Shown one piece after another: positions 18,602-48,536 of a stretch of DNA of 64,000 nt. Below the pieces are notes generated by a model that was not told where the DNA came from, searched no databases, and was given only the letters and a program-made list of their open reading frames with translations. Position 1 is the first letter of the stretch; each line of letters begins with the position of its first letter. The stretch comes from Yoonia sp. I 8.24 (lineage in GTDB: Bacteria > Pseudomonadota > Alphaproteobacteria > Rhodobacterales > Rhodobacteraceae). The stretch is from the NCBI RefSeq assembly GCF_022096995.1, contig NZ_JACXGQ010000004.1:124001-188000 (forward strand). Direction: 5' to 3'. The position numbers and the translations under genes are program-made.

Positions 18602-19164
18602 GCATGTCATCACAAGACGCCGCGCTATTGCTCCCATTCCTTGCCAACGGAACGTTAGAAGGCGCAGAGCTGGCGCAGGTCCAAGCTGCCGTTGGAAATG
18701 ATCCAGCCCTTGCCAATGAATTGGCCGCGCTCAAAAACATGCGTGCAACGATGCAAGCCGAGGATACCGGGTTTAGCCCCGGTGAATTGGGGCTTGCGCG
18801 ACTTATGCGCGACATCGATGCACCTGCGGCACAATCCGCAGCCCCCCGCGCGCGCATCTGGCAGGTCGCTGCTGCGATCCTTCTCGCAGTGGTGGTTGGG
18901 CAAACCGCATTGCTCATGCAACCCGGTGATACCGGGTCAGGGTTTGAGCTTGCAGGCGAAACCCCCGCGGCCTTCACGGTTACTGTCGCCCCTGACACGA
19001 CTGAATCCGCCTTGCGCGCGCTGTTACTTGATGCTGAGGTTGAAATTGTGTCTGGACCCTCCGCGCTTGGGCTTTACCGCTTGGCCTTACTGGAAGGGGC
19101 CGACATAAACACGGCCAAAGCACGGCTACAAGCTGCTACAACTATTATTGAGTCGCTCGAATAG
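18598..19164 (+). CDS. anti-sigma factor, single-pass membrane protein
   Basis: A 188-aa protein with an N-terminal cytoplasmic domain (about 1-80, DAALLLPFLANGTLEGAEL, typical of anti-ECF-sigma domains), one membrane segment (about 84-103) and an extracytoplasmic domain. The zinc-binding HxxxCxxC motif of many anti-sigmas is absent. The start overlaps the sigma gene (ATGA), so it should hold that sigma factor at the membrane. A secreted subtilisin-like protease follows 24 bases later. Confidence 0.82.
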   Translation: MSMSSQDAALLLPFLANGTLEGAELAQVQAAVGNDPALANELAALKNMRATMQAEDTGFSPGELGLARLMRDIDAPAAQSAAPRARIWQVAAAILLAVVVGQTALLMQPGDTGSGFELAGETPAAFTVTVAPDTTESALRALLLDAEVEIVSGPSALGLYRLALLEGADINTAKARLQAATTIIESLE

Positions 19165-30701: not shown

Positions 30702-30741
30702 TACCGGAATCGAGCCGGTGTACACGGATTTGCAATCCGCT
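30702..30741 (-). repeat. tRNA-Cys fragment, candidate island attachment site
   Basis: 40 bases match 48473-48512 (inside the intact tRNA-Cys gene) at 39 positions; the only difference is G30714 versus A48485. The copied part covers the anticodon stem-loop (GCA), variable region and T arm. The acceptor strand is not conserved (TGCCCC before the match), so this is not a functional tRNA. Same orientation as the intact gene, as expected for an attachment-site pair. Confidence 0.8.
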
Positions 30742-32470: not shown

Positions 32471-32494
32471 GCGAAGCTCCGATTATTTTGGGCG

Positions 32495-33757
32495 TTAGAT
32501 AAAAATTGTGATGACTTTTGGGAATAAGATCAGTCCCAAAAGGACGACCAGATATGCGCCGATATAGGGTAGCGCACTTTTAGAGATGTCTTCTATGCGC
32601 GATCCCGACAGCCGCGCCGCGATAAACAGGTTGAGACCAACAGGAGGTGTGAAGTTCCCGACCGCAAGCGCGATGACCGTAAAGACGCCAAAATAGATTG
32701 GATCAATGCCGACGGCGGCGATCAACGTTCCCAGCGTAGGTACCAGTAAAACCAATGCTGCGACGTTGTCTAAAAAGGTCCCTGCGATTAGCAAAAGCGC
32801 AAGTATCATGAACATAATCAGCGTTGGGTTGCTGCTAATTTCGAGGATCGACATCGCGACCGCTTGCGGCAGTTGCTCTGCAGTAATGATATAGGAAAAC
32901 GCGTTTGCGGTGCCCATCAGATACATCACCACAGCCGAGCTGATCGCCGTGTTCACGAAGATTGGGCCAAGTGATTTGAGCGTAATTGACCGATAGATGA
33001 ACAGCCCAACTATAAGCCCGTACAAGCAAGCAATCGCAGCAGATTCCGTTGGCGTGAATATCCCACCATAAATCCCACCCAGAATGATCAGGGGCATGAT
33101 CAAGGCAAGCCCGCTTTCGCTCATAACTTTGCGCGCACCGACAGAGGGCACCCGTGGCTCGCCGGCCAGACCATTCTTTTTGGCCAATAAGTAATTCACG
33201 CACCCCAAGGCCAGTGCGATAAAGACGCCCGGCAAGATGCCCGCAATAAACAAATCACCGATCGAAACGTCCGCGATTGTGCCGTAGATGACCATTGTGA
33301 GGCTGGGGGGGATAATCAGCCCAAGCGCACCAGACGATGCCACGACTGCGCCTGCAAAAGATGGCGAATAGCCGCGTTCTTTCATCGATGGGATCAAAAT
33401 GGACCCAATCGCAGAGGTCGTCGCCGGGGCAGATCCCGAAATAGCACCAAAGAACGCAGATGCCCCCGTCGACATCTGCGCCAAACCACCCGGGTAACGC
33501 CCTAGTGCCAGTCCGGCGAGCTTGACCAACCGTTCCGAAATTTGTGCGGCTGCCATGATGTTGCCTGCCAACAAAAACAGGGGGATCGCAAGGAAAGGGA
33601 AGCTGTTCAAACCGTTAAACAGTTTTTGCGGAATAATCAGCAAAGGGATTGGGCTGGCGAAATGTATCGCCACAACGGATGCAATCCCAAGCGCAAAGGC
33701 GACCGGCACGCCCAAAAGCAAAAGACCAAACAGAGCGATAAACAGTATCTCGGTCAT
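32495..33757 (-). CDS. TRAP transporter large permease (DctM-like)
   Basis: A 420-aa integral membrane protein with about 11-12 hydrophobic segments, the sodium-coupled translocation subunit of a TRAP importer. Seen: the DctM-type segments SSGALGLIIPPSLTMVIYGT near residue 140 and FTPTESAAIACLYG near 233, and AVGNFTPPVGLNLF near 365. Its start overlaps the small permease stop by 4 bases. The operon order is binding protein, small permease, large permease, amidase. Confidence 0.93.
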   Translation of the reverse strand: MTEILFIALFGLLLLGVPVAFALGIASVVAIHFASPIPLLIIPQKLFNGLNSFPFLAIPLFLLAGNIMAAAQISERLVKLAGLALGRYPGGLAQMSTGASAFFGAISGSAPATTSAIGSILIPSMKERGYSPSFAGAVVASSGALGLIIPPSLTMVIYGTIADVSIGDLFIAGILPGVFIALALGCVNYLLAKKNGLAGEPRVPSVGARKVMSESGLALIMPLIILGGIYGGIFTPTESAAIACLYGLIVGLFIYRSITLKSLGPIFVNTAISSAVVMYLMGTANAFSYIITAEQLPQAVAMSILEISSNPTLIMFMILALLLIAGTFLDNVAALVLLVPTLGTLIAAVGIDPIYFGVFTVIALAVGNFTPPVGLNLFIAARLSGSRIEDISKSALPYIGAYLVVLLGLILFPKVITIFI

Positions 33758-34224
33758 GGCTTTTTCCAGTTTAAGAATTTTTGGACTTGTTGTTCACATA
33801 AAAAGACCAGCGCAATGACCGACCCAACTGGCATTGCCATGGTGATATAACCAACAGGTATCCGTGCAGCAGGCGAGGTTTGCCGCATCGCCCTAAGCGC
33901 CAGATCGTGGCCCTTGACGACAACAAGACACAGGAAGGCGACAAGAAGTAAAAAGATAACAACATCCACAATAGTCTCTGCCCGCTTGGGGAGCCGCGTT
34001 TTGATGATGTCCATTGCGATGTGATTGTTGCTGCGAAAGGCAACTGCAGCCCCCAGAAAGACCGACCAAATCATCGCGTAGATCGAGAGTTCACTGGCTG
34101 CAGCGAAGGAAAAGTTAAAGAGAAACCGTCCACCGACTTGTGCAGTCACAAGCACAAAAACGGCAAATAAACAAAATCCGGCCAGGTATTTAGTGATTAT
34201 TTCTAGCCAGTTAAAGAACTTCAT
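33754..34224 (-). CDS. TRAP transporter small permease (DctQ-like)
   Basis: A 156-aa protein with four hydrophobic segments (about residues 14-34, 46-66, 85-105 and 127-147), the usual size and pattern of the TRAP small subunit. The segment ELSIYAMIWSVFLGAAVAFRSNNHI is typical. It is coupled to the large permease gene and follows the binding protein gene by 49 bases, with a hairpin in that gap. Confidence 0.9.
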   Translation of the reverse strand: MKFFNWLEIITKYLAGFCLFAVFVLVTAQVGGRFLFNFSFAAASELSIYAMIWSVFLGAAVAFRSNNHIAMDIIKTRLPKRAETIVDVVIFLLLVAFLCLVVVKGHDLALRAMRQTSPAARIPVGYITMAMPVGSVIALVFLCEQQVQKFLNWKKP

Positions 34225-34239
34225 ACTTTCCCTTTCGGT

Positions 34240-34267
34240 TGGTCCGCACAGTCTCCAGCGCGGACCA
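34240..34267 (-). terminator. hairpin between TRAP binding-protein and permease genes
   Basis: TGGTCCGC (34240-34247) and GCGGACCA (34260-34267) form an 8-bp stem with a 12-base loop directly after the binding-protein stop. No T-run. It probably stabilises or attenuates the message so that binding protein is in excess. Confidence 0.5.
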
Positions 34268-34273
34268 TCTCAA

Positions 34274-35251
34274 TCAATCTGCAAGCGTTGCTTGAATTTC
34301 TTCGATGATATCGGCGTCCAAGGTTTCTTTGAACATGTCAATCACAGGCGCTGTTGCTTCTTGGAACGGCGTGACATCAACGTCGTTGATTTGATTGCCC
34401 AACTCGGCCAGTTCTGCCCATTGCGCATCTTCAAGGTCATTCACCATATTCAAGTGAATGCCCGCCATTTCAGTCGCCGTATCAAGCAAAACTTGACGAT
34501 GCTCTTCAGAAAGGGATTCGAGCAGCGCTTCGTTCATGATCAGTGGCGACCCGAGGTAGATGTGCGCAGTCCGTGTTGTGTAGGCCTGAACTTCGTAGAA
34601 CTTTTGTGTCAAAATGTGTGCGGGCGGGTTCTCTTGCGCGTCAGCAGTCCCCAACTGCAAAGCCGAGTACAGCTCGCCAAAGGAAATCACGACTGGGTTG
34701 GCACCCATGGCTTTAAACGTTTCAACGAAGACTTCGCCTTCTGGAACGCGAATTTTAACGCCTTCAAGATCAGCAGGTGTGGTGATTGGTTGTTCATTGT
34801 TGGTAATGTTGCGCAGACCGCCCATCCACCAGCCGATAACAACAGCTCCCGTGCCATCCATCTTGGCTTCAAGTTGATCGCCAACCGGTCCTTCAAGAAC
34901 CTCATGAACATCATCCAACGATGAGAACAAGAATGGCAGGTTCAAGATACCCATGTCCGGCACCCAGTTGGACAAAACCGTATCAGAAACGAGAAAGATG
35001 TCTTGCGTTCCCAGCATTGTGCCTTCGACGGCTTCTAATTGCTTACCAAGCTGATCGGCAGGGTAAACTTGAATGTCGATTTCGCCGTTTGTCCGCTCCC
35101 TGACGGCGTCGGCAAACAACTCAGAAATCGTTTGGTAGTGGTGTGTCGGGGCCCCCGTATGGCCAAGTCGCAATGTGATCGTATCTGCATGTGCAGCACT
35201 TACCAGAAGCGACGAAATGGCAATGGCCGAAGCGGCGGAAAATAGTTTCAT
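34274..35251 (-). CDS. TRAP transporter periplasmic binding protein (DctP-like)
   Basis: Extracytoplasmic solute receptor (325 aa) with a signal peptide (about residues 1-22, ending AHA-D). It has the DctP family features: LRLGHTGAPTHHYQTISELF near 27, EGVKIRVPEGEVFVETFKAM near 163 with the arginine that usually binds a carboxylate, and GADAQENP-like GTADAQENPPAHI near 205. The ligand is therefore probably an organic acid or acid amide. It is divergent from the LysR gene. Confidence 0.92.
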   Translation of the reverse strand: MKLFSAASAIAISSLLVSAAHADTITLRLGHTGAPTHHYQTISELFADAVRERTNGEIDIQVYPADQLGKQLEAVEGTMLGTQDIFLVSDTVLSNWVPDMGILNLPFLFSSLDDVHEVLEGPVGDQLEAKMDGTGAVVIGWWMGGLRNITNNEQPITTPADLEGVKIRVPEGEVFVETFKAMGANPVVISFGELYSALQLGTADAQENPPAHILTQKFYEVQAYTTRTAHIYLGSPLIMNEALLESLSEEHRQVLLDTATEMAGIHLNMVNDLEDAQWAELAELGNQINDVDVTPFQEATAPVIDMFKETLDADIIEEIQATLAD

Positions 35252-35451
35252 GTGATGTTCCTCTTGTTGGATAGCGTCTATTCGAAGACCAGTTTGTGGC
35301 TCTATTATTTTTCTCGATCGTGACCGCCCCTTCGCTTGCAGAAGGGAAAGTAAACAAAGTGTCTGGCGCTTGTAGAACCATTACCTTGCTTTCAACATCA
35401 ACTATGGCATTGCATTTTTTGCCGCAGGTAGCATTAACTTGCGAAGTGCGC

Positions 35452-35503
35452 GTTGCCAAATCGGCAACAGATCATTTCGCAATATGCGCAATTATTGTGC
35501 GAA
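35452..35503. promoter_or_regulatory. candidate LysR-type operator region
   Basis: Two inverted repeats lie in the gap between the divergent TRAP operon and the lysR gene. GTTGCC-AAATC-GGCAAC (35452-35468) has T-N11-A-like geometry. TTCGCA (35476-35481) pairs with TGCGAA (35498-35503). LysR regulators usually bind such sites beside their own gene; binding here is inferred. Confidence 0.4.
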
Positions 35504-35520
35504 GAAGACCGGGGTATGCA

Positions 35521-36471
35521 ATGAATTTAAACGGGCTGAAATATTTTCTCGAGGTTGCGAAGTGTAAATCAATACGCAGGGCTGCCGAACGACAACATAT
35601 CGCTGCCTCGGCAATAAGCAGGCAAATATCAGCGCTGGAACACGAACTGGATTGCGTGCTGCTGGATCGTCGTTCTGACGGCGTAACTTTAACCGAAGCA
35701 GGCGTGCGTCTTTGGAAACACGGATTAAAGATTGAAGCGCAATTGCGGTTGGTTCAGTCCGATATCGACGATTTAAAAGCACTGCACCGCGGTGCGATCC
35801 GCATCACTACCGTCGAAGGTATTACCGAAAATTTCCTGCCCGAGGTTTTGACCGAATTTAATCAACTATATCCTGACGTGATCTTTGAAACCACCGTCGC
35901 AAGCAGAGACGAGACCGTCGATGCGCTTGATCGATACGACGCAGATATTGGCTTTGTCTACGACTTTTCAAACCACCATGCGATCGAGACTTTCGCAGAT
36001 TATCGGCAGGCCCTTATTCCATTTGTACCAACAGATCACGTACTCAGCGATGGCCAGGAAATTGGACTGGCTGAATTGCTAGAGTACGATCATGTTTTGC
36101 CCGATGATAGTTTTGGCATTAGTCAATTGATCAAGAGAGTCGCAAAAAAGGAAAAAGCCAAGGTCGCGCCGCGCACTGTTAGCAACAGCCTTCAATTTTT
36201 GCGCAGTTACGCAATACGCAACAACGCGGTATTTTTTGTTCCTGTGCAAGCCGTTTATAGCGAAGTCACAGGAAACGCGCTTGCGCCAGTTAATCTGCAA
36301 TGCCCTGCCTTCGCGCACCGCCGTCTTTCAATTGCGCGTAGGCGACAACGCTCGCTTTCTCCCGCAACGACGCTATTTGCGAAATTTGCGGAAGAACATT
36401 TTATGGATTGGGAAGCGCGAGATGCCTCTGCTCTTACCGCTGCACGCCAAAAATGGTGGGCGCCAGCGTAA
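35521..36471 (+). CDS. LysR-family transcriptional regulator
   Basis: A 316-aa regulator with an N-terminal winged helix-turn-helix (MNLNGLKYFLEVAKCKSIRR, then AAERQHIAASAISRQISALE, residues 1-60) and an effector domain from about residue 90. I start at ATG 35521; the longer upstream frame runs through the intergenic region. Divergent from the TRAP/amidase operon, it most likely controls that operon in response to the imported compound. Its stop lies 2 bases from the convergent RidA gene. Confidence 0.9.
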   Translation: MNLNGLKYFLEVAKCKSIRRAAERQHIAASAISRQISALEHELDCVLLDRRSDGVTLTEAGVRLWKHGLKIEAQLRLVQSDIDDLKALHRGAIRITTVEGITENFLPEVLTEFNQLYPDVIFETTVASRDETVDALDRYDADIGFVYDFSNHHAIETFADYRQALIPFVPTDHVLSDGQEIGLAELLEYDHVLPDDSFGISQLIKRVAKKEKAKVAPRTVSNSLQFLRSYAIRNNAVFFVPVQAVYSEVTGNALAPVNLQCPAFAHRRLSIARRRQRSLSPATTLFAKFAEEHFMDWEARDASALTAARQKWWAPA

Positions 36472-36473
36472 TC

Positions 36474-36971
36474 CTATTCAGACTTCAGAAGAACAGTCAT
36501 TTCTGCTTCAATTGGGGCATCCAAACCTAATTCATTTTGGAACAATGCGGCGCGCGCATGTTTGCCACGCTCTTCTCCCAAAAGCGCAACATAAAGATCA
36601 GATGCGCCATTTAGAACCAAATGCGCCTCGGTAAACCCTGGTGCAGAATTGACGTAGCCAACCATTTTGACGATGCGTTCAATCCGGTCCAAATCGCCGA
36701 TGGCTTTTTTCATCAATGCAAGATGGTTTAGTGCCATCAATTTCGCAGATTCATACCCTTGCGCGATGGTCAGCTCACCACCCAATTTGCCCTTGATCGG
36801 CATGATATCGTTATCGTTATCATCACGGATCGTTCCCAACGTGCCTGAAACATACAACATATTCCCAACCTGTGAAGCCGGCAGGTAGTTCCCAATCGGG
36901 CGCGGTGGTGGTGGCAACTTCAAGCCAAGTTCTTCGAGTTTGCGTTCTAAGACACCAACGGTTTCAGACAT
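36474..36971 (-). CDS. RidA/YjgF-family protein
   Basis: A 165-aa member of the Rid family (reactive enamine/imine deaminases; some branches have other hydrolase roles). Seen: LKLPPPPRPIGNYLPASQVG near residue 18, NMLYVSGTLG near 37 and MVGYVNSAPGF near 108. The start with AAGGAA upstream is ATG 36971. It is longer than archetypal RidA (about 130 aa) and belongs to the longer subgroup often found in catabolic clusters. Beside the amidase/TRAP/LysR genes it may process an unstable nitrogenous intermediate. Confidence 0.85.
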   Translation of the reverse strand: MSETVGVLERKLEELGLKLPPPPRPIGNYLPASQVGNMLYVSGTLGTIRDDNDNDIMPIKGKLGGELTIAQGYESAKLMALNHLALMKKAIGDLDRIERIVKMVGYVNSAPGFTEAHLVLNGASDLYVALLGEERGKHARAALFQNELGLDAPIEAEMTVLLKSE

Positions 36972-37579: not shown

Positions 37580-37650
37580 TCAAAGAAAAAGCCTCTTGTG
37601 GCAGTGTTCGTAAACTTGATGTCAATCCGCCTCCTTCCTTGATGAATCTC

Positions 37651-37694
37651 AGCCTCTTTCAGCGGGCAACTAAGCCTCTTTCAGCGGGCAACTA
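37651..37694. repeat. perfect 22-bp tandem duplication
   Basis: Bases 37651-37672 are repeated exactly at 37673-37694 (each begins AGCCTCTTTC and ends GGGCAACTA). Because 22 is not a multiple of 3, the duplication shifts the reading frame of the minus-strand gene crossing it and creates its stop codon (TAG, 37670-37672). Confidence 0.95.
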
Positions 37695-38746
37695 AGCCCC
37701 GGATAGAATAAAAATGAGCAAATTCCCAAAGTCAGATTGTGATATCTAGTCGCTGCCTCATGCCCAAGCGGCATCGCCGTCAAAAGTTCGATCAGCGTTC
37801 TTGCAAACACTCGTTCATCAAAGTTGCTTTGAGCGACAACTCTCGCAAAATCTTCATTTGAAAGCGGACCTTCTGCGCCCTTCAAGTTCTTATAAAATTC
37901 TAAGACCTCTGGGTGATCAAGAACGAATTGCGCCAGATCATTTTTGATGAAGGGGTGGATGTCCTTCACAGATTCTTTGGTTACATATGTTGTGCCGTCC
38001 TTATAGGATTTGACAAGTGCACCGCCTGCTTGATGATACTCGGCTTTCAGGAATTCAAGCATATGGTGGGTGTAGAATTCTTGACTGTTGAGGGCCAAAT
38101 GGTGCCTCACCGATAGTTTGGGAACCAGCAAAATTGGCGTCCCATCGTATGTGGGTAAGTTCAAGGTTACAGACTGCCAGTCACGCGTTTGCGCGTTCCA
38201 TATCGGGCCTAGGCTGTTCGTCGGGTGTGTTTCAATTTCATAGAGTTCGCATTGCTGGACAGTATAGTCGGCCAGTTGTTGGCGAAGTACGTTAGTAGTT
38301 AGGTCCGAAATCGTATCAGGTCCGATATATTTGATGAAAAGCTCGGCCTCCGCGACATCTGCCAACACGCCTGTTTCGAAGGCACGGCTGTTAACAATCG
38401 AGTTTGTGAGGCTTCTAGCTTTCTGTTCTCCAATCGCACGTCCCCGTGGCCTTCCTTGTGATACACCAAATCTAGTCTCATTTGGCTCATGCAAATTGCT
38501 GAGTAAATGAGTGGCACGCGCATCATTACCTTCCCGTAGAGCATTGAGAACTTCAGTGAAGAATGATCTGATTTGTCCGATGCAGAGGTCGGACCAGTCA
38601 TCAGATTTGAGCTGTATGGCATAGGGGTCGAGGTAAAGCGGAACGTCGCGAGTTAACTCTACGTCTACGAAATCTAGTTGCGACTGTGAATTGGCTAACG
38701 AATAAACTTGGGAAAAGCGGGGCAAATCAAATCCTTCAGGGGGCAA
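37670..38746 (-). pseudogene. truncated PD-(D/E)XK-like nuclease/defence protein, broken by a 22-bp duplication
   Basis: A 358-aa frame ends FYPGLSCPLKEA at the first copy of the 22-bp repeat. With one copy removed, translation continues ...PLKEAEIHQGRRRIDIKF, then TNTATRGFFFEMMNMQ. That is the start of a PD-(D/E)XK-type catalytic domain of a large uncharacterised family I associate with restriction/defence islands. After MMNMQ the DNA changes to phage spanin sequence, so the expected ExK part (such as ECKNY) is missing. The N-terminal region (VYSLANSQSQLDFVDVELTR) is intact. So two lesions are visible: a frameshifting duplication and loss of the 3' end. Not expected to be an active nuclease. 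Confidence 0.65.
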
Positions 38747-39357: not shown

Positions 39358-40698
39358 TTACCGCATATTGAAAAGCTCCTGATGGTAGCGCCGGGAAGGA
39401 AGGCCGTTCTTTGCGAGATCATCGCGCAGGCTTGTTCCGAAAGCCGCAGGGCCGCAGAACCAGACCGAGGCCGTGTTCCAATCCGGCACCATCTCGCGCA
39501 GACGGTCGCCGGTCAGCATTCCGTCACGGTCATCGACCATCAGATGCAGCCGGACCCCTGCCGCCTTGGCATCCGCCGTCAGAAGCGCGCGCGCCTCGTC
39601 GGAAGTCTTGGGCGTGGAGTGGATCAGGTCGATGGTGCCGGTATTGCCCATAAGAGCAAGCTGCTTCATCCGCGCGATAAACGGGGTGATCCCGATGCCG
39701 CCGCCGATCCAGATCTGACGGCTCTCGGTGTCATGGAAGGTGAAGCGGCCATAAGGGCCTTCCACCATCGCCGCACCACCGATGGAGAGCGTGTCGGCCA
39801 TCAGGTTGGTGTAATCGCCAAGGGCCTTTGTGCTGAAACTGATCTTGCGTGTTTGGGGATCCCAAGCCGAGGCCATCGTAAAGGGGTGTTTGCCTTCACG
39901 CTTGTCGAAGGTGACAAAGGCGAACTGACCTGCGTCATGCCCTTTCCAGCCGTCTTCCAAAGTAATGTCGATCTCCGTAACGCGCATGTCGGGGAAGCTG
40001 TGGATCCTGTCGATCAGGCCGTGAACCCGTTTCGAGCGACCGATCTGACGGGTGAGTGCCAGAACGGCAGAGATCACGCCGCCCAGCATCAGCGCGCCAG
40101 AGATCACGCCCAGCGGCTGTGTCCAACTGTCAAAATTCATTAACACGATGGAATGGCCCACCAGCGCCAGATAGGCGATTGCGATCAGCGTGTGGGTGGA
40201 GACAAAGAGCTTATAGGGAAAGCGCTTGATCAGGGCGAGAGCGATCAGCACGACGGTCGCATAAAAAGCCCATTCGCCTACGGCTTCGGCCGTTCCACGC
40301 ATGCTGTTCAGGAATTCCTGAATGGCGGGCAGCTCGGGCATGCCTGCGGGTGGACCACCACGCTCGGGCCGGTCCATCAGCCCCCATTGCACCGCCCATT
40401 TCGGCCCCTTTGCAGCGACCCAGTGCAGGGGTGCAGCGACCAGTGCGAAGATGCCCAGCCATTTGTGCAGGCGGTAAGATTTGTCCAACCCATTAAGCCA
40501 TGGCTCCAACCACTTGGCGCGCGCCGCGAGGATCATTGCGACGCTCATGGCGCCAATAGCCATAACGCCGGAGTATTGCAGAAAGAGGTTCCGGGCCGAT
40601 TGAAAACCCGTTATCTCGGGAAAGGGCAGGTTTGCGGCGACCCACAGCGCGGTCAGCACGCCAAGTATGCTCCAAAGAGCGATTCTTATATTTTTCAT
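39358..40698 (-). CDS. ferric-reductase-like transmembrane flavohaem oxidoreductase
   Basis: A 446-aa NOX/FRE-type protein. The N-terminal half has about six membrane segments with candidate haem histidines in HKWLGIFALVAAPLHWV (about residues 78-94) and STHTLIAIAYLALVGHS (about 172-188). The C-terminal half is an FAD/NAD(P) reductase with HPFTMASAW (flavin) near 278, GPYGRFTF near 322 and the NAD motif GGGIGITPFIA near 342. It passes electrons from cytoplasmic NAD(P)H across the membrane to ferric iron, oxygen or another acceptor. It lies downstream of the lipocalin/FAD-oxidoreductase genes on the same strand but after a strong terminator, so it is probably a separate transcript of the same module. 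Confidence 0.87.
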   Translation of the reverse strand: MKNIRIALWSILGVLTALWVAANLPFPEITGFQSARNLFLQYSGVMAIGAMSVAMILAARAKWLEPWLNGLDKSYRLHKWLGIFALVAAPLHWVAAKGPKWAVQWGLMDRPERGGPPAGMPELPAIQEFLNSMRGTAEAVGEWAFYATVVLIALALIKRFPYKLFVSTHTLIAIAYLALVGHSIVLMNFDSWTQPLGVISGALMLGGVISAVLALTRQIGRSKRVHGLIDRIHSFPDMRVTEIDITLEDGWKGHDAGQFAFVTFDKREGKHPFTMASAWDPQTRKISFSTKALGDYTNLMADTLSIGGAAMVEGPYGRFTFHDTESRQIWIGGGIGITPFIARMKQLALMGNTGTIDLIHSTPKTSDEARALLTADAKAAGVRLHLMVDDRDGMLTGDRLREMVPDWNTASVWFCGPAAFGTSLRDDLAKNGLPSRRYHQELFNMR

Positions 40699-40739
40699 GG
40701 AGCTATTCCTGAAATGGGTTGAATTGAGTTACAGGCTTG

Positions 40740-40775
40740 CATGTAGAAAACGCGGCCGGTCATAGCTTCTACATG
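40740..40775. promoter_or_regulatory. candidate operator upstream of the ferric-reductase-like gene
   Basis: CATGTAGAA (40740-40748) and TTCTACATG (40767-40775) are perfect 9-bp inverted arms around 18 bases, about 40 bases upstream of the gene's start. Likely a dimeric regulator site; which regulator is unknown. Confidence 0.5.
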
Positions 40776-40993
40776 GCAGGAACGAAATTCCGTCGGCTGC
40801 CCCTGCTTTTTTTGATTTCGGTGCGCCCGGTCAACGTGACAACACCGACAGCGTTGTCCGCTTCGAATTTGATCCAGATTTGTTTGGACCGGCATTGTCG
40901 CAGAAATCGGGGCGTGATCGCACTCCCCCTTCCCCCGGACAGGCTTATCCTACGGGCGCTGTGACAGGTACTGGTCCGAGAGAGAGGCAAGAT

Positions 40994-41016
40994 GCCGGGG
41001 CATTGCTCGCCCCGGC
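40994..41016 (-). terminator. terminator after the cytoplasmic lipocalin-like gene
   Basis: GCCGGGGC (40994-41001) and GCCCCGGC (41009-41016) form a perfect 8-bp GC stem with a 7-base loop, starting 11 bases after the lipocalin-like stop. No T-run. Confidence 0.6.
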
Positions 41017-41026
41017 GGCGGCTCTT

Positions 41027-42037
41027 TCAGCCCTCGTACCCATTATACTTGTCATCTTCGCGAATGGTGAAGACGATCTCGTGTAGCGCTTGTGTCTTGA
41101 ACTCCTGCGTTTCGCCCGCTTTGGTGATCCGAATGGTCTCATTCCCAAGGTACCGGTAGGCAGGTTCCCCGTTGGGGGCGCATTCTTTCAAGGGCCGCTC
41201 GACCATAACAAGGTGGTCCTGGTCGATCTGGAACTCGATCTCGAAGTCGCCCTGCGAGGCCTTCATTTTGAGGGTCTTTCCATAAGGCAGTCCCAATTCG
41301 CTTTCGCTCGCAGGGACCATGTCTTCGACCGAACCGGTCATCGTCAGACCTTCACGGTTGAAAACCGGATCGATAACAGCGCCATCCTTGGAAAAGACGA
41401 GGCAGCTAAACTGTGGCGGGCCGTCGCGCAGGATCATGACCGAGTAATCGACGGAGTACTCAGGTGTGTGCAGCTTGCCCCAATACCAGTTGCGTTTTCC
41501 TGCGGACACAGGAACTTCGCCCCAGTTGTGATCGCGGTAACCGCTGCCTTTGACGGGTGTTTCAACGCCATCTTTGGTCAACATCCCTTCGACCCGCCCC
41601 TGCGGAACAGCAATGGTCCACCCCATGGCGGCCATCGCCATTTCTTGCGGGTTTTTACCGACCACCCAGGACGGGAAATCCTTGTAAAGTTTCAGGTGGA
41701 TCCCGTGACCATTGCACAGCGCCTTCATCTCGAAGTGGTCGCCTTGGTCGATGCAAAAATCATCACCCATGTGGACGTCGCATTTGTCGTAGGACAGGCT
41801 GACTTGATCCTCGGAATGGCGGACCAGCTCGCTGATTTCACGACCATCAGGCGCAAAGATATTCAGGCGCACGCTCGGCTGGCGCGGCGACAGACGGGTG
41901 TCATTGGTGGACCACATCACAACCACATGCTCGCCGCTGTCCAGCTCGGCATCGAAATACCACCATTCGAAATCCGTCTCCCGATTTTTCATTGGGAATG
42001 GCAAATGCATCGCGTCGTGTTTCAAAAAGTCAGTCAT
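41027..42037 (-). CDS. AttH/CrtC-type lipocalin-like protein, cytoplasmic
   Basis: A 336-aa protein with the hallmark motifs of the AttH / carotenoid-hydratase (CrtC) lipocalin-like family: EWWYFD (residues 24-29) and the central GYRDHNWG near 180. It has no signal peptide. I chose ATG 42037 because GGAGA lies 5 bases before it; an upstream ATG (42067) is the alternative. Members bind or hydrate hydrophobic molecules such as carotenoids; here no carotenoid genes are present. It is the paralog of the Tat-exported protein at 42228-43397, and the two are separated by a 10-bp-stem hairpin. Confidence 0.8.
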   Translation of the reverse strand: MTDFLKHDAMHLPFPMKNRETDFEWWYFDAELDSGEHVVVMWSTNDTRLSPRQPSVRLNIFAPDGREISELVRHSEDQVSLSYDKCDVHMGDDFCIDQGDHFEMKALCNGHGIHLKLYKDFPSWVVGKNPQEMAMAAMGWTIAVPQGRVEGMLTKDGVETPVKGSGYRDHNWGEVPVSAGKRNWYWGKLHTPEYSVDYSVMILRDGPPQFSCLVFSKDGAVIDPVFNREGLTMTGSVEDMVPASESELGLPYGKTLKMKASQGDFEIEFQIDQDHLVMVERPLKECAPNGEPAYRYLGNETIRITKAGETQEFKTQALHEIVFTIREDDKYNGYEG

Positions 42038-42184
42038 ATCAGTCTCCATATTTTGTGAGCCATTCAAGCGGGCTGGATCAGCCCTATCGGCCCAAAAAGC
42101 TTGTTGTATTTAGAAAGGAACAAATCCTCTCCGTCATGTTTGCCTGTCGTGTGGTTTTTACCCAGAGACTGGCTGTTAATGTGC

Positions 42185-42217
42185 GTCCCGTTTGTAACGA
42201 TCTTGCGCAAACGGGAC
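42185..42217 (-). terminator. intercistronic hairpin between the two lipocalin-like genes
   Basis: GTCCCGTTTG (42185-42194) and CAAACGGGAC (42208-42217) pair perfectly around 13 bases, just after the Tat-exported protein's stop. Probably an attenuator or a message-stabilising hairpin. Confidence 0.55.
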
Positions 42218-42227
42218 AAAGGGTGAC

Positions 42228-43397
42228 CTACAAGAGCCAGTTCGCTTCTGCTTTGGGGATCGCTTCCGAAAAGGACATTTCGTGAATGATGCTGCCGGTC
42301 GCGATCTCGACACCGCCCTCGAGCGGCACTGTCATTTTGATGTCGCCGCCAAGACGGATGTAACCCGGCTGAGCAGTTTCATCGGTCGGCTCTTGGTCGG
42401 AATTGAGCGCATCACTAAGCAGGTGATTGCCCGAAATCTCGATGCGTATCGTGTCGCCGTTGAAGGGCGTTTCAATCAGGAAGCCATCAGGCCAACCGTT
42501 TCCGGATTGCGGCGCGACATGAATTTCACCAACAAAGCTGTCCTCGAACTCACCCGTGCTCAGGAGAATTTTTTCGCCTTTCGCCAGCATGAACTTGCAC
42601 ACGACCTTGTCGCCATAGTCTGCGTTGTGCTGAATATACGAGAAGTTCAGCGTGAATTCCCCACATTCGGCGCGGCCCCAGTGCCAAGCTTTGAGAACGC
42701 CCTCGATGCCGGCATTGCCCCAGTTGTGGTCGTGATAGCCCTTGCCGTCTTCGATCGCGATCGTTTCGCCCGCGACTTGAATGGTGCCATTCACAACGGC
42801 GCGCGGCGCGGGCACGACATGGGCGTTAAACACCGTCAGAGCCTCATCGAAATACATTGCACCCGATCCTGCACGCCAGGATTCAACGGTCGCAACAAGC
42901 TCAAGGTCCACGACCAGATCTTCGTGCTCGGCATGCAGCTGCCAATTCGGGTAGCGGCCTTTGCACCAGTTGTTGCCCAGCTTAACGTCGCAGTGTTCTT
43001 TCGACGCAATGAATTCCACACCGGGGAACGGCACCTGAAAATCGCGGTTGGTGCCATCGGGGAGTTCGACGTTGAGCATCATCACCGGCGGCAGATCGGG
43101 GTTGTCCAAATTGATCAAGGGGCGGTCCATCAGGATCACCGCGGCTTTGAGGCCCGCATCGGTGAAGAGGTCAAAATACCACCACTCATAGTGGCGCGGA
43201 TTTCCGTCATTGTGATAGGCGTCATCGCGGTCGGTCACCACCTCTTGCGCCGCCTGATCGTAGAGGCCCGGTGCCTCGTAATTGCCGATCACGAATTTCG
43301 GCGTTTGGGCCATGGCCATGGAGCGCAAACCGGGCACGAGCAAGAAACCGGCTCCGAAAGCGGTTGAAGTCAAAAGGGATCTACGTGAGATTTCCAT
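42228..43397 (-). CDS. Tat-exported AttH/CrtC-type lipocalin-like protein
   Basis: A 389-aa protein with a twin-arginine signal (SRRSLL at residues 4-9, then a hydrophobic stretch ending MAMAQ near 31). The mature part carries EWWYFD (71-76) and GYHDHNWG near 220, shared with the cytoplasmic paralog. Tat export implies folding, or cofactor or ligand loading, before export to the periplasm. It lies 40 bases downstream of the FAD oxidoreductase gene, so the order oxidoreductase, exported lipocalin, cytoplasmic lipocalin forms one operon. Ligand unknown. Confidence 0.82.
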   Translation of the reverse strand: MEISRRSLLTSTAFGAGFLLVPGLRSMAMAQTPKFVIGNYEAPGLYDQAAQEVVTDRDDAYHNDGNPRHYEWWYFDLFTDAGLKAAVILMDRPLINLDNPDLPPVMMLNVELPDGTNRDFQVPFPGVEFIASKEHCDVKLGNNWCKGRYPNWQLHAEHEDLVVDLELVATVESWRAGSGAMYFDEALTVFNAHVVPAPRAVVNGTIQVAGETIAIEDGKGYHDHNWGNAGIEGVLKAWHWGRAECGEFTLNFSYIQHNADYGDKVVCKFMLAKGEKILLSTGEFEDSFVGEIHVAPQSGNGWPDGFLIETPFNGDTIRIEISGNHLLSDALNSDQEPTDETAQPGYIRLGGDIKMTVPLEGGVEIATGSIIHEMSFSEAIPKAEANWLL

Positions 43398-43437
43398 GGT
43401 CTTTCCTTTTGGATGTATTGGTTAAGTCGTGCGCTGA

Positions 43438-44526
43438 TCAGCCTTCTGACTGGTTCAGCAGCTTTGCGTATCTTTTGAGGAACAGGTCTTTGCCCTTCAT
43501 CTTGCTGGTCAGGAAATTTCCAGCGGTGAAGAAGCCAAGAAACGAGTTCCCCAGCTTTGGCCCCAGCGGCACCAGGAAGGGCGCCTTTGGGCCCCATGGG
43601 GTGTAAGGCTTTAGGTCTTCGACGTTTTTGCCCTCGACCAACGCCGTCAGCGTCTTGGTGAGCCAAGCCACTTGACGGCCTGCGCCAACGACGGTCATTG
43701 CATCGCCCGTCTCGGCGGCGTCGCCTGCGGCTAATACATTGCCAAACTGTGATGGGCGCAGCCATGCGTCCGTCTTCACGCGGTCTGCGCGGCCAACCTC
43801 TGCCCCCGGCAAGGATTGCAGCAATGTCGATGTCGCCTTGCTGCCAATGACAGGGAAGACCAAATCGGCCTCGATTTGCGCGCCGTTGGAAAGGGACAGG
43901 GTGCCAGCATAGGGTTCTGTAAGGCTCTGCAGGTTTTCCGCGCGCGCGCCAAAATTCAGCGACACGCCTGATGCTTTGAGCTTCGCCGTCAACTTACGGC
44001 CCAGCTTGGGCGGGTGATGCGGGAAGAGCGTGGCCTCGCTGGAAATCAGGTGCACAGTTTTGTCAGGGAAAGCGTGGGCGATTTCGCCGGCAAGCTCGGA
44101 TCCGACAGCGCCAGCACCGACAATGGCAACGGTCTGCGCCGCGACGAGCTGTGCGTGGACCTGCCCATTGGTCGCGCGAAGCGCTTCGATGTCACCGCCG
44201 TTTGCCTTGAATGGCACCGCGTTGCTCGATCCGGTTGCCACAACGATGTAGTCGGCGGCAATCGTTTCTCCTGATGCAAGTGCTACCTCGGTGTCAGAGA
44301 TGGACTGCGCAACGCCCTGCACGACACGGCCGTGCGTCAACACTCCATCATACGGGATTAGCGCACGGTCCAGGATCGCAGGATCAACCACGGCCCGCAC
44401 CATCGCAGGCGCATGAACAAAGTGGCTGTTTTGCTCGATCAGCGTAACCTCAGCTGTATTGTCCAGAGATTTGGCAAGTTCCGCGCCGACGTAGCCGCCT
44501 CCAATGATCGCTATTTTCTGTGACAT
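43438..44526 (-). CDS. FAD-dependent NAD(P)H oxidoreductase (FSP1/NDH-2-like)
   Basis: A 362-aa flavoprotein of the pyridine nucleotide-disulfide fold. Seen: FAD-binding IAIIGGGYVGAELAKSL at the N-terminus, IVVATGSSNAVPF near 105, the NAD(P) motif VAIVGAGAVGSELAGEI near 137, and NVLAAGDAAETGDA near 268. There is no CxxxxC redox disulfide, which favours a quinone- or other-acceptor reductase like FSP1/AIF or NDH-2. I start at ATG 44526. It is the first gene of the lipocalin operon and is divergent from a MerR regulator 106 bases away. Confidence 0.83.
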   Translation of the reverse strand: MSQKIAIIGGGYVGAELAKSLDNTAEVTLIEQNSHFVHAPAMVRAVVDPAILDRALIPYDGVLTHGRVVQGVAQSISDTEVALASGETIAADYIVVATGSSNAVPFKANGGDIEALRATNGQVHAQLVAAQTVAIVGAGAVGSELAGEIAHAFPDKTVHLISSEATLFPHHPPKLGRKLTAKLKASGVSLNFGARAENLQSLTEPYAGTLSLSNGAQIEADLVFPVIGSKATSTLLQSLPGAEVGRADRVKTDAWLRPSQFGNVLAAGDAAETGDAMTVVGAGRQVAWLTKTLTALVEGKNVEDLKPYTPWGPKAPFLVPLGPKLGNSFLGFFTAGNFLTSKMKGKDLFLKRYAKLLNQSEG

Positions 44527-44558
44527 GAGTTTGCCCCGTTCGCTGTCTGTGGTTGCAT

Positions 44559-44620
44559 TTCGATTCGAAGGCATACATAAGGGTACTCGAAATAAAAAAC
44601 AATAGACCATGGTCCATGGT
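44559..44620. promoter_or_regulatory. divergent promoter with two candidate MerR-type palindromes
   Basis: TTCGATTCGAA (44559-44569) and ACCATGGTCCATGGT (44606-44620; 7-bp arms, one central base) lie between the oxidoreductase operon and the divergent merR-like gene. MerR proteins bind dyads inside the promoters of their divergent targets. I cannot say which of the two is the site. Confidence 0.4.
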
Positions 44621-44632
44621 TTGGAGGTTATG

Positions 44633-44995
44633 ATGAAAATAGGTGAACTTTCCGAGAGATCCGGCCTGAGCCGCGACACCATTCGGCTTTATGAAAAGAA
44701 CGGGTTGATCGCGTCTTCCGCCAGCAAAAGCGCAACAAACAACTACCGCGAGTACGGCGAAGATGTTTTGTTGCAGCTGCAATTTGTTGGCAGCGCGCGC
44801 GACGTGGGCATATCGATCGCCGATCTGCGCGAACTCATGAAAGCCTTTTTTGACAGTGGCGATCCGTCCGAGGCCGAGAAGGTCATGGTTGCCAAGGTTG
44901 CTGAGCTCAAAGTTCGAATTGCGCAGATTGAGAACGTCATCTCGTTTCTGGATGCTGCAATCGGAAAGGTCCGATCTGGCCTGGATGGGCTTTGA
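44633..44995 (+). CDS. MerR-family transcriptional regulator
   Basis: A 120-aa regulator. The N-terminal MerR helix-turn-helix (MKIGELSERSGLSRDTIRLY, residues 1-20) and wing (NYREYGEDVLLQLQFV) are followed by the long dimerisation helix (ELKVRIAQIENVISFLDAAI). It lacks the C-terminal cysteine-rich metal site of MerR/CueR/ZntR, so an organic or redox signal is more likely. ATG 44633 has GGAGG 5 bases upstream. Divergent from the oxidoreductase/lipocalin operon and followed by the DUF1566 gene, it probably controls both. Confidence 0.88.
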   Translation: MKIGELSERSGLSRDTIRLYEKNGLIASSASKSATNNYREYGEDVLLQLQFVGSARDVGISIADLRELMKAFFDSGDPSEAEKVMVAKVAELKVRIAQIENVISFLDAAIGKVRSGLDGL

Positions 44996-45062
44996 ACGAA
45001 AGGCGGGGTGCACCCGTGTTTCAACCCGTAACAAACTGCCTACAACACGTGAGACAAGCAAG

Positions 45063-46310
45063 ATGATGAAGAAACCACTGAGTGCCAATCGCCGCATGCC
45101 ATTTCTTTCTGTGCTAGCGGTCCTGATTGGCGCGGCCCCGGTTTTCGCCGAGGCACCATTCCCTGTACCAGACACAATGCAAACCACCTGCTTTGACGCC
45201 GCTCACGAGATGGCCTGTCCGAGTGCCAGGTCTGCCTTTTCCGGTCAGGATGCTCAATTTACCTCCAACCCGGTCAGCTATACCGATAACGGCGACGGCA
45301 CGGTGACCGACAATGTGACCGGTTTGATGTGGCAGCAAAGCGTCGACCTGAATGGCGACGGTGTGATCAACGCGGCCGACAAGCTGACCTATGAAGAGGC
45401 CGCAGCGGGGGCCGCTTCGTTCAATCTTGGCGGATACACCGACTGGCGGCTTCCGACGATCAAGGAGGCCTATTCGCTAATCCTGTTCAGTGGTCAGGAC
45501 AGCACCGGCTATAACGGCACCACCAGCGATGGGATCGAACCGTTTATTGACGACGACATCTTTCACTACGGGTATGGCGACGTCGATGCGGGCGAGCGTT
45601 TGCTCGAAGCACAGATGGCCACGTCAACCCTATACGGGACAACCACGCGGGGCGAGCAGACCATGTTCGGCGTCAACTTTGTTGACGGGCGTATCAAAGG
45701 ATATGGGCTGGAGACCTCGTTCTCGGGCGGCCCGAAAGTGTTCTACGTCATGTATGTGCGCGGAGATACCGGCTATGGCGTGAATGATTTTACAGATAAC
45801 CAGGACGGGACAATCACGGATCAGGCTTCTGGCCTGATATGGGCCCAGCAGGACAGCGGACAGGGCATGTCATGGGAAGATGCGCTGAGCTATGCGCGAG
45901 ATGCCGAAATTGCCGGATACACCGATTGGCGCATGCCAAATGCCAAGGAATTGCAGAACCTGCTGGATTATTCCCGTGCGCCGGCCACAACACAATCTGC
46001 CGCCATCGATCCGCTGTTTGCGAGCAGCCAGATTACCAACGAGGCTGGCGAGGCGGACTATCCCTATTACTGGACCGGCACGACCCATGCCTCGTGGAAC
46101 GACCGTCGGGCCGGGATGAGCGCCGTCTATATCTCGTTTGGAACGGCCCCGGGCTATGTCCGCAACGCTTGGATCGACATTCACGGCGCAGGTGCGCAAC
46201 GCAGCGATCCAAAGATTGGGGACCCTGACGACTATCCAGAAGGGTTCGGGCCCCAGGGCGATGCGATCCGCATTTTGAACTACGTCCGGCTTGTACGCGA
46301 CGCAGGTTGA
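45063..46310 (+). CDS. secreted DUF1566 (Lcl-domain) protein
   Basis: A 415-aa exported protein with a signal peptide (about residues 1-28, ending PVFAEA). Two repeats carry the Lcl/DUF1566 signature: DNGDGTVTDNVTGLMWQQ with YTDWRLPTIKEAYSL, and DNQDGTITDQASGLIWAQQ with YTDWRMPNAKELQNLL. Such domains occur in surface and adhesion-type proteins. The first repeat also holds LNGDGVINAADK, a dockerin/EF-hand-like calcium loop. ATG 45063 is used because the longer frame overlaps merR. It lies 67 bases downstream of merR on the same strand; its link to the module is inferred. Confidence 0.8.
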   Translation: MMKKPLSANRRMPFLSVLAVLIGAAPVFAEAPFPVPDTMQTTCFDAAHEMACPSARSAFSGQDAQFTSNPVSYTDNGDGTVTDNVTGLMWQQSVDLNGDGVINAADKLTYEEAAAGAASFNLGGYTDWRLPTIKEAYSLILFSGQDSTGYNGTTSDGIEPFIDDDIFHYGYGDVDAGERLLEAQMATSTLYGTTTRGEQTMFGVNFVDGRIKGYGLETSFSGGPKVFYVMYVRGDTGYGVNDFTDNQDGTITDQASGLIWAQQDSGQGMSWEDALSYARDAEIAGYTDWRMPNAKELQNLLDYSRAPATTQSAAIDPLFASSQITNEAGEADYPYYWTGTTHASWNDRRAGMSAVYISFGTAPGYVRNAWIDIHGAGAQRSDPKIGDPDDYPEGFGPQGDAIRILNYVRLVRDAG

Positions 46311-47230: not shown

Positions 47231-47404
47231 ATGGCACAGACGACGATTGAAGCAAAAGCACTACGTTTATTGACCGCATTTGAGCGTGCGGGAAAATCAG
47301 TTGGGCGTGTCACTATCGACGGGAAGAGAATCGAATTGGTGTTGGTTGATGCCCCTACGGCAGATGAATTTGAGAGGTTAAATATGCGCCATGACAAAAC
47401 GTGA
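47231..47404 (+). CDS. 57-aa protein coupled to the island integrase
   Basis: A short ORF (MAQTTIEAKALRLLTAFERA...) begins at ATG 47231 with AAGG a few bases upstream. It ends at TGA 47402-47404, overlapping the integrase start by 14 bases. It reads like a real protein (helical N-terminus, then GRVTIDGKRIELVLVD), and small ORFs of this kind often precede integrases in alphaproteobacterial islands. I do not recognise a domain; an accessory or excisionase role is inferred from position. Confidence 0.6.
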   Translation: MAQTTIEAKALRLLTAFERAGKSVGRVTIDGKRIELVLVDAPTADEFERLNMRHDKT

Positions 47405-48401
47405 ACTCCCCAAGCACGTATACCGCCAACGCAACGGGTTGTACTTTCAACGCCGGGGGTGGAAATCCCAAAAATTCTTAGCCGAATTCGGCACGCCAGA
47501 TTTCTGGACCGAATACGCAGCTATTCTTTCCGGCGACCTACCCACCTCAAAAGTCACCGCGCGTTCATTTAAGGCGCTTGTAAAAAGCTACCACCGATCC
47601 AGCAGATACACCCAGCTCAAGCCGCGCACTGCGTTGGATTATGACAAATATCTGCGGTTTTTCGAAGAGGTCATGGGCGATGCCAATCCGACCAACATGA
47701 AGCGCAAAGACGTTATTCGTCTTCGCGATTCAAATGCCGACAAGCCTTACTTCGCCAACTATTCTCTACGGGTGCTCCGCGTCCTACTGGAGCACTGTGT
47801 AGATTTAGGATGGTGCGAAACCAATCCGGCGCGCGGCGTATCTGAAATCAAGACTGTCAAGAAAGCACGCGCACCTTGGCCCCAAGAGCTTCTAGATCAG
47901 TATCGCGCTACCTGCCCTCTTGGGACGCGCGAGCGACTGGCTATGGAGCTCTGCGTCGGCACGGGGCAGCGCATTGGCGATGTCATTGAAATGCGCTGGT
48001 CAGATATTCAAGACGGCGGGTTCGCTGTGCGCCAGAACAAAACTGGCAAACAGCTCTGGATACCGATCCTCCCCGAACTGCAAGCCGCACTGGATGCGGC
48101 AAGTCGGCATTCGATCTTTATCCTCACCAATGAACGCGGAACCAATCGTTGGTCCTATCGCGGCGTTGCGCAAGCGGTGAAGAACGTCCGGCAACAGATA
48201 AATGCGCTCGGTTTTGATATTCACAGCTGGCGATACAATGCAGCGTGCGAATTAGTCGAAGCAGGATGCGGAGACGATCTTGTCGCAGCCGTAACAGGCC
48301 AAAGCGCTGCCATGGTTCAACACTACACAAAGCAAGTTCGCCAACGCGTCAGAGCGATTCAGGCGCAGCAAATGCGAACAGAACAAAAACAGAATGTTTA
48401 G
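47391..48401 (+). CDS. tyrosine-type site-specific integrase
   Basis: Phage-type integrase (336 aa). An N-terminal arm/core-binding part (SAM-like, about residues 60-145, TARSFKALVKSYHRSS) is followed by the catalytic domain: first arginine in GTGQRIGDVIEMRW near 190, the HxxR box in HSWRYNAACE near 283, and the nucleophile tyrosine in QHYTKQVRQR near 318. The usual LGHS histidine position reads TGQS here, a substitution worth noting. It points at the tRNA-Cys gene 62 bases beyond its stop, the classical layout of an element integrated at a tRNA 3' end. Confidence 0.9.
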   Translation: MTKRELPKHVYRQRNGLYFQRRGWKSQKFLAEFGTPDFWTEYAAILSGDLPTSKVTARSFKALVKSYHRSSRYTQLKPRTALDYDKYLRFFEEVMGDANPTNMKRKDVIRLRDSNADKPYFANYSLRVLRVLLEHCVDLGWCETNPARGVSEIKTVKKARAPWPQELLDQYRATCPLGTRERLAMELCVGTGQRIGDVIEMRWSDIQDGGFAVRQNKTGKQLWIPILPELQAALDAASRHSIFILTNERGTNRWSYRGVAQAVKNVRQQINALGFDIHSWRYNAACELVEAGCGDDLVAAVTGQSAAMVQHYTKQVRQRVRAIQAQQMRTEQKQNV

Positions 48402-48462: not shown

Positions 48463-48536
48463 TGGAGGCGAGTACCGGAATCGAACCGGTGTACACGGAT
48501 TTGCAATCCGCTGCATAACCACTCTACCAACTCGCC
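48463..48536 (-). tRNA. tRNA-Cys (anticodon GCA)
   Basis: A complete 74-base tRNA on the minus strand. Acceptor GGCGAGT (48536-48530) pairs with ACTCGCC; the anticodon arm GCGGA-TTGCAAA-TCCGT carries GCA; the T arm is ACCGG-TTCGATT-CCGGT; CCA is encoded (48465-48463). It is the integration site of the neighbouring island; a 40-bp partial copy lies at 30702-30741. Confidence 0.96.

Follow-up and report, generated by a model that had tools for sequence, protein, structure and literature searches.

A recurring operon of an FSP1-family reductase and CrtC-superfamily lipocalin-like proteins on a genomic island of Yoonia sp. I 8.24

The stretch of 64,000 nucleotides analysed here (Yoonia sp. I 8.24, contig NZ_JACXGQ010000004.1, positions 124,001 to 188,000; hereafter the window) carries a small gene module in which a MerR-family regulator is divergent from an operon for a flavin adenine dinucleotide (FAD) oxidoreductase and two lipocalin-like proteins. 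The oxidoreductase is assigned to the FSP1/AIFM2 family and the lipocalin-like proteins to the CrtC superfamily. One of the latter, TatLip, has a twin-arginine (Tat) signal, and the other, cytLip, has none. The regulator, reductase and lipocalin-like genes very probably form a unit, a conclusion of which we are much surer than of the function of that unit. It is a mobile, mix-and-match operon, in which an FSP1-family reductase is combined with one or two CrtC-superfamily enzymes and a local regulator, and it is smaller, and probably more catalytic, than a preliminary description of this DNA had proposed. The linkage of the genes, their recombination, the purifying selection on them, the predicted fold, the conserved catalytic residues and an operator-like site that is unique in the genome were all computed directly. 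As to function, the most probable reading is that the module modifies or detoxifies prenylated compounds of the quinone or phenol type, one hydratase acting in the periplasm and another in the cytoplasm; we give this reading a probability of roughly 0.38.

Distribution and reshuffling of the unit

All surveys were made on samples of genomes, which overlap in part. The sample of the same bacterial family comprises 295 genomes. The FAD reductase (E <= 1e-90) was found in 22 of them, a count that may be low, as a first look scored at most six FAD candidates per genome (five in the class sample described below). The lipocalin family (profile A2, E <= 1e-10) was found in 8 of the 295, all of which are among the 22, and with the Yoonia genome itself excluded the co-occurrence has a hypergeometric p of 3e-9. 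Reductase and lipocalin genes are adjacent in seven of these 8 genomes; in G164 the lipocalin is on another contig. Co-occurrence had been named beforehand as the test of the module, and its outcome, with the reductase present in 8/8 lipocalin genomes, favours the core: the survey shows the MerR regulator, the FSP1-like reductase and the two lipocalin-like proteins to be a recurring unit.

The 22 FAD loci besides that of the window were searched with the module proteins, and 20 were examined gene by gene. The gene beside the reductase codes for a MerR regulator in 7 loci, a LysR regulator in 8 and an HxlR regulator in 3. The remaining four (L129, L132, L137 and L138) have another regulator or none that was seen; in L132 a gene that looks LysR-like by eye stands ahead of a row of DoxX, flavin mononucleotide (FMN) reductase and FAD genes. 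Three of the LysR loci (L121, L123 and L126) also have a pirin gene. Behind the MerR-FAD pair, cytLip is found in L117, L118 and L125, and behind LysR-FAD, TatLip is found in L119, in L120 and, broken, in L121. The regulator is exchanged between loci: it is MerR in the window, LysR in relatives with a lipocalin, and HxlR at some lipocalin-free loci. The sequence ends near the FAD gene in L119, L123, L135 and L136, where the absence of a neighbour means little; the contig of L123 stops 116 bp past the gene, and a lipocalin is possible there. Among the further genes near these loci, a Polyketide_cyc2 protein and an ion channel (Pfam) lie behind cytLip in G157, and G278 has similar genes in the same order, the first without a Pfam match at E 1e-5 (L117, 5741-6548; L118, 9314-10127). 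An open reading frame (ORF) family that by eye resembles zinc alcohol dehydrogenase/NADPH:quinone oxidoreductase lies less than 6 kb from the FAD gene in three of 26 loci (L119, L129 and L132).

A further 390 genomes form the sample of the order. There, cytLip (profile A3, E <= 1e-30) was found in four genomes, the Yoonia genome included, and in all four the FAD gene is next door. Both lipocalins are present in G966, as LysR-pirin-FAD-cytLip-TatLip, and in G835, as MerR-FAD-cytLip-TatLip, with the lipocalins in the order opposite to that of the window; the cytLip of G835 is flagged with one in-frame TAG, and that of G782 consists of the first 147 residues only. TatLip alone was seen in Fluviibacterium aquatile (LysR-pirin-FAD-TatLip; L005) and in Tropicimonas (LysR-FAD-TatLip; L004). 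In four plasmids of Sulfitobacter pontiacus, only the last 229 residues of TatLip are left, behind LysR-pirin-FAD in both of the plasmids examined by gene. TatLip is truncated or internally deleted beside a full-length FSP1-like gene in L003 (10001-10687), L007 (1659-2345) and L121 (7050-7628); these loci represent repeated loss of the lipocalin partner.

Beyond these relatives the unit is rare. The class sample has the reductase (E <= 1e-90) in 4 of 385 genomes and cytLip (E <= 1e-12) in 1 of 385, the Yoonia genome being counted both times, which speaks against a class-wide spread. A plasmid search with cytLip returned six records only, at 24-26% identity. The wider lipocalin family was followed over 80 loci on genome contigs. 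The reductase is present in three of the four near alphaproteobacterial ones; the fourth, L006, begins inside the lipocalin. Of the other 76, many of them short, two have an FAD match, which is weak (25-29% identity) and about 6-9 kb away, so that the wider family does not bring the reductase along. A metagenome-assembled genome of the Bacillota (L008, 8972-11035) has two lipocalins of the CrtC superfamily in tandem; judged by eye, the ORFs next to them resemble acyl-CoA dehydrogenases, a CoA-transferase and a 3-hydroxyacyl-CoA dehydrogenase.

The locus of the window is a recombinant: a MerR-FAD-cytLip cassette has received a segment that resembles LysR-type cassettes and comprises TatLip together with the FAD 3' end. 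This follows from two comparisons. The match to the MerR-type locus L117 runs at 78% from 44971 to about 43477, is followed by a part without any BLAST match, and resumes at 84% over 42132-41026. Against three LysR-type loci, identity in windows of 100 bases lies at 57-78% where the FAD gene begins and rises to 70-92% from about 43626 to 42225. What remains of the displaced, older FAD 3' end can be recognised between the two lipocalin genes, where KHDGEDLFLSKYNKLFG can be compared with the ends of the FAD proteins of L117 and L118, KLKGEDLFLSKYNKLLGRK(G). A second recombinant is G273, in which the FAD protein falls in the LysR clade (support 100/100), whereas its other two genes, MerR and cytLip, belong to the MerR type. 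In the JGI data, the longest contig listed measures 2,440 bases both for TatLip P0005 and for cytLip P0242, which is suggestive only as a hint at more recombinants. The module genes are under purifying selection: the ratio of nonsynonymous to synonymous substitution rates (dN/dS) is 0.05-0.10 against matching relatives, and 0.22 for the FAD gene against L119, which is of the other type.

The reductase and the two lipocalin-like proteins

Residues 4-360 of the FAD protein align full-length with FSP1 structures (E 7.8e-29 and 6e-23), and the next flavoprotein family is far behind (E 1.8e-09). In this alignment, E144, K344 and F349 are the equivalents of FSP1 E156, K355 and F360, the last two labels being those that we take FSP1 to have. 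The comparison confirms the likeness to FSP1 that had been put forward earlier and places the protein in the FSP1/AIFM2 family, and the predicted activity is that of an NAD(P)H:quinone reductase. FSP1 is described as reducing quinones and suppressing ferroptosis, with E156 as a functional residue, in PMC10516921. The names seen in database records on bacterial relatives of FSP1 include NADH dehydrogenase FAD-containing subunit and N-acyl homoserine lactone synthase. PADLOC gave no match for the lipocalins and weak, short matches only for the FAD protein, and a defence-system reading of the module was dropped on this result.

TatLip and cytLip are 24% identical. Pfam detects CrtC (PF07143) weakly in cytLip (E 6.4e-05; 24.1 bits, cut-off 22.5) and found no family in TatLip. 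Structure and profile comparison predicts that both share the two-barrel, lipocalin-like fold of CrtC, AttH, kievitone hydratase and Diels-Alderase. The likeness to the fungal Diels-Alderases is one of predicted fold only, and the fold of the AttH member 2ich is likewise shared by the predicted folds of both proteins. Neither has a Pfam match to AttH/DUF2006 (PF09410) at E 0.001. The catalytic residues of CrtC are given as W110, D268, W283 and W285 in PMC12402844. Their counterparts are W72/W73, D223, W238 and W240 in TatLip and W25/W26, D169, W184 and W186 in cytLip, as matched by a profile alignment in which 10 CrtCs from the same bacterial family were used; the counterpart of W110 is either tryptophan of a WW pair in both proteins. 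The spacing of the tryptophans, at D+15 and D+17, is identical between the CrtCs and both lipocalins. The CrtC equivalog model NF045922 scores cytLip at 19.6 of 400 bits and does not match TatLip.

Since the catalytic residues of CrtC are kept and the predicted fold is that of CrtC, kievitone hydratase and Diels-Alderase, both proteins may be read as carbocation enzymes. The preliminary description had proposed that they bind a hydrophobic compound. Mere binding is less likely than catalysis, because the catalytic residues are retained. The description was borne out on the signals, since by eye only one of the two proteins shows a Tat signal, and TatLip is predicted to be exported to the periplasm. 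Its remark that no carotenoid genes accompany the module agrees with the Yoonia genome, which has no CrtC above the family cut-off; a reading as carotenoid biosynthesis was rejected on this result.

Regulator, neighbouring genes and genomic island

The window MerR has no cysteine. An alignment with its relatives places Gly at the position of Cys76, which is kept in all seven MerR relatives compared. It does not reach the cut-off of any of the listed NCBIfam models, and it lacks the sensor cysteine of the metal and thiol branches. Without a cysteine, it cannot sense metal or oxidant through thiols, and ligand sensing would be the simplest remaining idea. The loss of Cys76 may mean that the signal has changed, or that the protein is blind to it. 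Eight MerR-FAD loci were aligned, and their MerR-FAD gaps are divergent apart from a best-conserved stretch, ACAATrGACCATnGTCCATGGTTT, which is recognisable in all eight. When up to 3 mismatches to the 22 bases of this operator-like site are allowed, the Yoonia genome has no further copy; this suggests a local switch, and a wider regulon was rejected. A scan for the sigma-70 consensus found no promoter in the divergent gap, and the one site that it lists sits inside cytLip; a pair TTGTTT-17-TATGTA upstream of the FAD gene is a candidate seen by eye only.

The gene content and coordinates reported previously hold (Table 1). The wider membership that had been drawn around the core does not. The ferric-reductase-like gene, 328 bp beyond cytLip on the minus strand, and the gene for the Lcl_C (DUF1566) protein have no match in the DNA that was compared at the 22 FAD loci besides that of the window. 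The ferric reductase is present in two of the 21 other FAD genomes, unlinked to the FAD gene, an outcome of the co-occurrence test that is not in its favour, and the contig of the window has another copy of it at a distance of about 211 kb. Both genes are therefore judged to be neighbours and not members of the module. The terminator that had been placed ahead of the ferric reductase fares no better: the hairpin there is strong, has no U-run and is unlisted by the terminator scan, and a canonical terminator is not supported.

Table 1 Features of the window discussed in the text.
Feature	Position	Strand	Remarks
MerR-family regulator	44633-44995	+	Divergent from operon
FSP1/AIFM2-family FAD oxidoreductase	43438-44526	-	362 residues, no cysteine
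TatLip, CrtC-superfamily double-barrel lipocalin-like protein	42228-43397	-	Twin-arginine signal SRRSLL (by eye)
cytLip, CrtC-superfamily lipocalin-like protein	41027-42037	-	336 residues, no signal
Operator-like sequence	44601-44622		AATAGACCATGGTCCATGGTTT
Relic of 3' end of MerR-type FAD gene	42080-42141	-	Between the two lipocalin genes; one frame = KHDGEDLFLSKYNKLFG
Recombined segment (FAD 3' end and TatLip)	42200-43600	-	Borders approximate
Hairpin past cytLip	40994-41016	-	No U-run
Ferric-reductase-like protein	39358-40698	-	PF01794 (Pfam); neighbour, judged outside module
Lcl_C protein (formerly DUF1566)	45063-46310	+	PF07603 (Pfam); neighbour, judged outside module
Left copy of tRNA-Cys direct repeat	30702-30741		Probable attachment (att) site
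Right copy of tRNA-Cys direct repeat	48473-48512		Inside tRNA-Cys 48463-48536(-)
Tyrosine integrase of island	47391-48401	+	Beside intact tRNA-Cys

The module is carried, as had been suspected, by an island at tRNA-Cys, which is supported by a repeated 40-nt fragment of the tRNA gene (two copies, 98% identical), the tRNA-Cys itself and the adjacent tyrosine integrase. The right-flank gene is present in 18 relatives of the same genus, and in six of the seven examined it has a tRNA-Cys beside it. On the left, the flank gene gcvP is not collinear in relatives, so that the left border is a probable one, set by the repeat. In one of the six, G005 (L141), about 15.6 kb separate the tRNA-Cys (3115-3188) from a partial copy (18739-18810), as would be expected if it shared an integration hot spot with the island. 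The cargo at 31106-36971 (amidase, DctP/DctQ/DctM TRAP transporter, LysR regulator and Rid/YjgF-family protein) looks like an uptake and catabolic cluster. An ORF at 37670-38746(-), of 358 residues and without a Pfam match, resembles the PADLOC candidate defence family PDC-M36A (2.8e-31, residues 9-233) and has a 22-nt tandem duplication at its 3' end (37648-37691).

Proposed function and comparison with known systems

In the reading that we prefer, a hydrophobic compound of the prenylated quinone or phenol type would enter the cell. The periplasmic, Tat-signal-bearing CrtC-like enzyme and its cytoplasmic paralog would protonate an isoprenoid C=C bond through the invariant aspartate (D223 and D169, respectively), the invariant tryptophans would stabilise the cation, and the prenyl tail would be hydrated or rearranged. 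The FSP1-like enzyme would reduce the quinone head of the same class of molecule with NAD(P)H at the membrane, and the end product may be less membrane-active and less prone to redox cycling. We infer the enzyme activities, the substrate class, the export, the inducer and the action of both activities on one compound. Action on isoprenoid side chains is described for CrtC (PMC12402844), for 25-phosphosteroid lyase (PMC11061730) and for kievitone hydratase. As the relatives of CrtC act on isoprenoid chains and FSP1 on quinone heads, a prenylated quinone or phenol is the common denominator. Pirin, DoxX with FMN reductase, and HxlR are gene types of quinone and electrophile responses. Together with the common denominator, their presence beside other FAD loci (DoxX and FMN reductase in L132) favours modification or detoxification, which we rank ahead of an antioxidant unit built on carriers and of a metabolic step.

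Several observations weigh against this reading. The reductase mostly occurs without a lipocalin, which six of the 22 other loci have, one of them broken. TatLip was found in none of 18 genomes of the same genus, and it has decayed in the S. pontiacus plasmids, in G082 and in UBA6544 while the reductase stays, which argues that it is dispensable. In H16, which is the fifth plasmid of S. pontiacus, the FAD match is cut short and TatLip is not matched at all, and the reductases of G204 and G553 have an in-frame stop. The profile match to CrtC proper is modest for TatLip (57.6% probability; 89.8% for cytLip), and the cytLip of the window, like that of some relatives, has Arg in place of the first His of GYHDHNWG, a motif of this protein. 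Finally, the catalytic residues do not fix the reaction, since they are common to a wider superfamily that includes non-hydratases, the Diels-Alderases.

A membrane-lipid antioxidant unit is a less probable explanation. In it, the FSP1-like enzyme would counter lipid peroxidation by keeping ubiquinol in the reduced state, as FSP1 does in animals, and the lipocalins would be non-catalytic carriers of lipids or quinones. It agrees with the family membership of the reductase and the ferroptosis-suppressing quinone reduction described for FSP1 (PMC10516921), and with the pirin, DoxX and HxlR genes at other reductase loci. Yeast Svf1 is presented as a two-barrel lipocalin-like potential ceramide carrier in PMC10583516, and its family is linked to AttH/CrtC and to oxidative stress in PMC2954199. 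However, a pure carrier would not need the CrtC catalytic residues, which are under strong selection, and one lipocalin copy has an export signal, apart from the cytoplasmic reductase.

A more specific version of the detoxification reading is a two-compartment system against prenylated quinones or phenols, such as algal or sponge meroterpenoids, with a periplasmic and a cytoplasmic hydratase acting on the tail and an FSP1-type reductase on the head; the whole would have spread as an operon, its regulator and hydratases being swapped by recombination. We consider this version unlikely as a whole. If true, it would tie the chemistry of FSP1 to a partner dedicated to modifying the tail.

Use or production instead of defence, with the module as a step in the catabolism or biosynthesis of one particular terpenoid or meroterpenoid, is less probable again. 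The fold relative 25-phosphosteroid lyase acts in anaerobic sterol catabolism according to PMC11061730; the tandem lipocalins of the Bacillota relative stand among ORFs that by eye resemble acyl-CoA enzymes, an amidase and a TRAP transporter are on the same island, and a Polyketide_cyc2 protein lies behind cytLip in G157. Against this, no pathway gene was found in more than three of the 26 loci, the best being the zinc alcohol dehydrogenase/NADPH:quinone oxidoreductase-like ORFs. A purely accidental joint spread of mobile genes that are not coupled in function would fit the island, the plasmid location in S. pontiacus, the recombination between loci and the several losses of the lipocalin, but it is highly improbable: the same reductase is accompanied by two lipocalin subfamilies that are only 24% identical, the regulators and the gene orders vary, and the genes are under purifying selection. 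Least credible is the system first proposed, in which MerR, the reductase, two binding proteins, the ferric reductase and the DUF1566 protein act together, as the sharing of one island is offset by the distribution of the two outer genes and by an operator-like site unique to the MerR-FAD gap.

The occurrence of the same parts in other combinations in some related bacteria suggests that greasy prenylated compounds are warded off, or made use of, in a way not yet described. For a flavoprotein that had been anonymous, a recurring genetic partner whose kind of chemistry is known provides a hypothesis that can be tested, and it could reveal the role of FSP1-type enzymes outside animals. Candidates for cofactor-free terpene hydratases are provided by the CrtC-like proteins, and the reshuffling of the loci amounts to a natural experiment that can tell which of the parts depend on one another. 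Among the paper titles listed, in searches whose scope left out most subscription literature, none joins FSP1-like enzymes with CrtC/AttH-like proteins.

Compared with animal FSP1 (AIFM2), an NAD(P)H:quinone reductase, the FAD protein has a collinear, full-length match and keeps the equivalents of E156, K355 and F360. It differs in that the position of His174 of human FSP1 is aligned with Ser, in having no cysteine, and in being a bacterial protein whose gene shares an operon with those of CrtC-like proteins and has a regulator beside it. CrtC (PF07143, NF045922) and both lipocalins are alike in superfamily, predicted fold and the counterparts of the four catalytic residues, but the lipocalins are far below the equivalog cut-off and TatLip has a Tat signal. 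Kievitone hydratase (7a0q/7a0t) is a fungal enzyme with 13-14% identity over the structural alignment, whereas TatLip and cytLip are a pair of twins, one without a signal, with a reductase in addition. AttH NE1406 (2ich), the decalin Diels-Alderases CghA, Fsa2 and Phm7, and 25-phosphosteroid lyase are 9-16% identical, with reactions that differ or are unknown; to our knowledge, AttH NE1406, the fungal decalin Diels-Alderases and the lyase have no FSP1-like partner. The MerR-type regulator HypR is, we presume, linked to the flavin reductase MerA, which we take to be a cysteine-based disulfide reductase. The arrangement of a MerR-family gene linked to an FAD reductase would be the same in the window, but there the FAD protein has no cysteine and the MerR lacks the Cys76 of its relatives.

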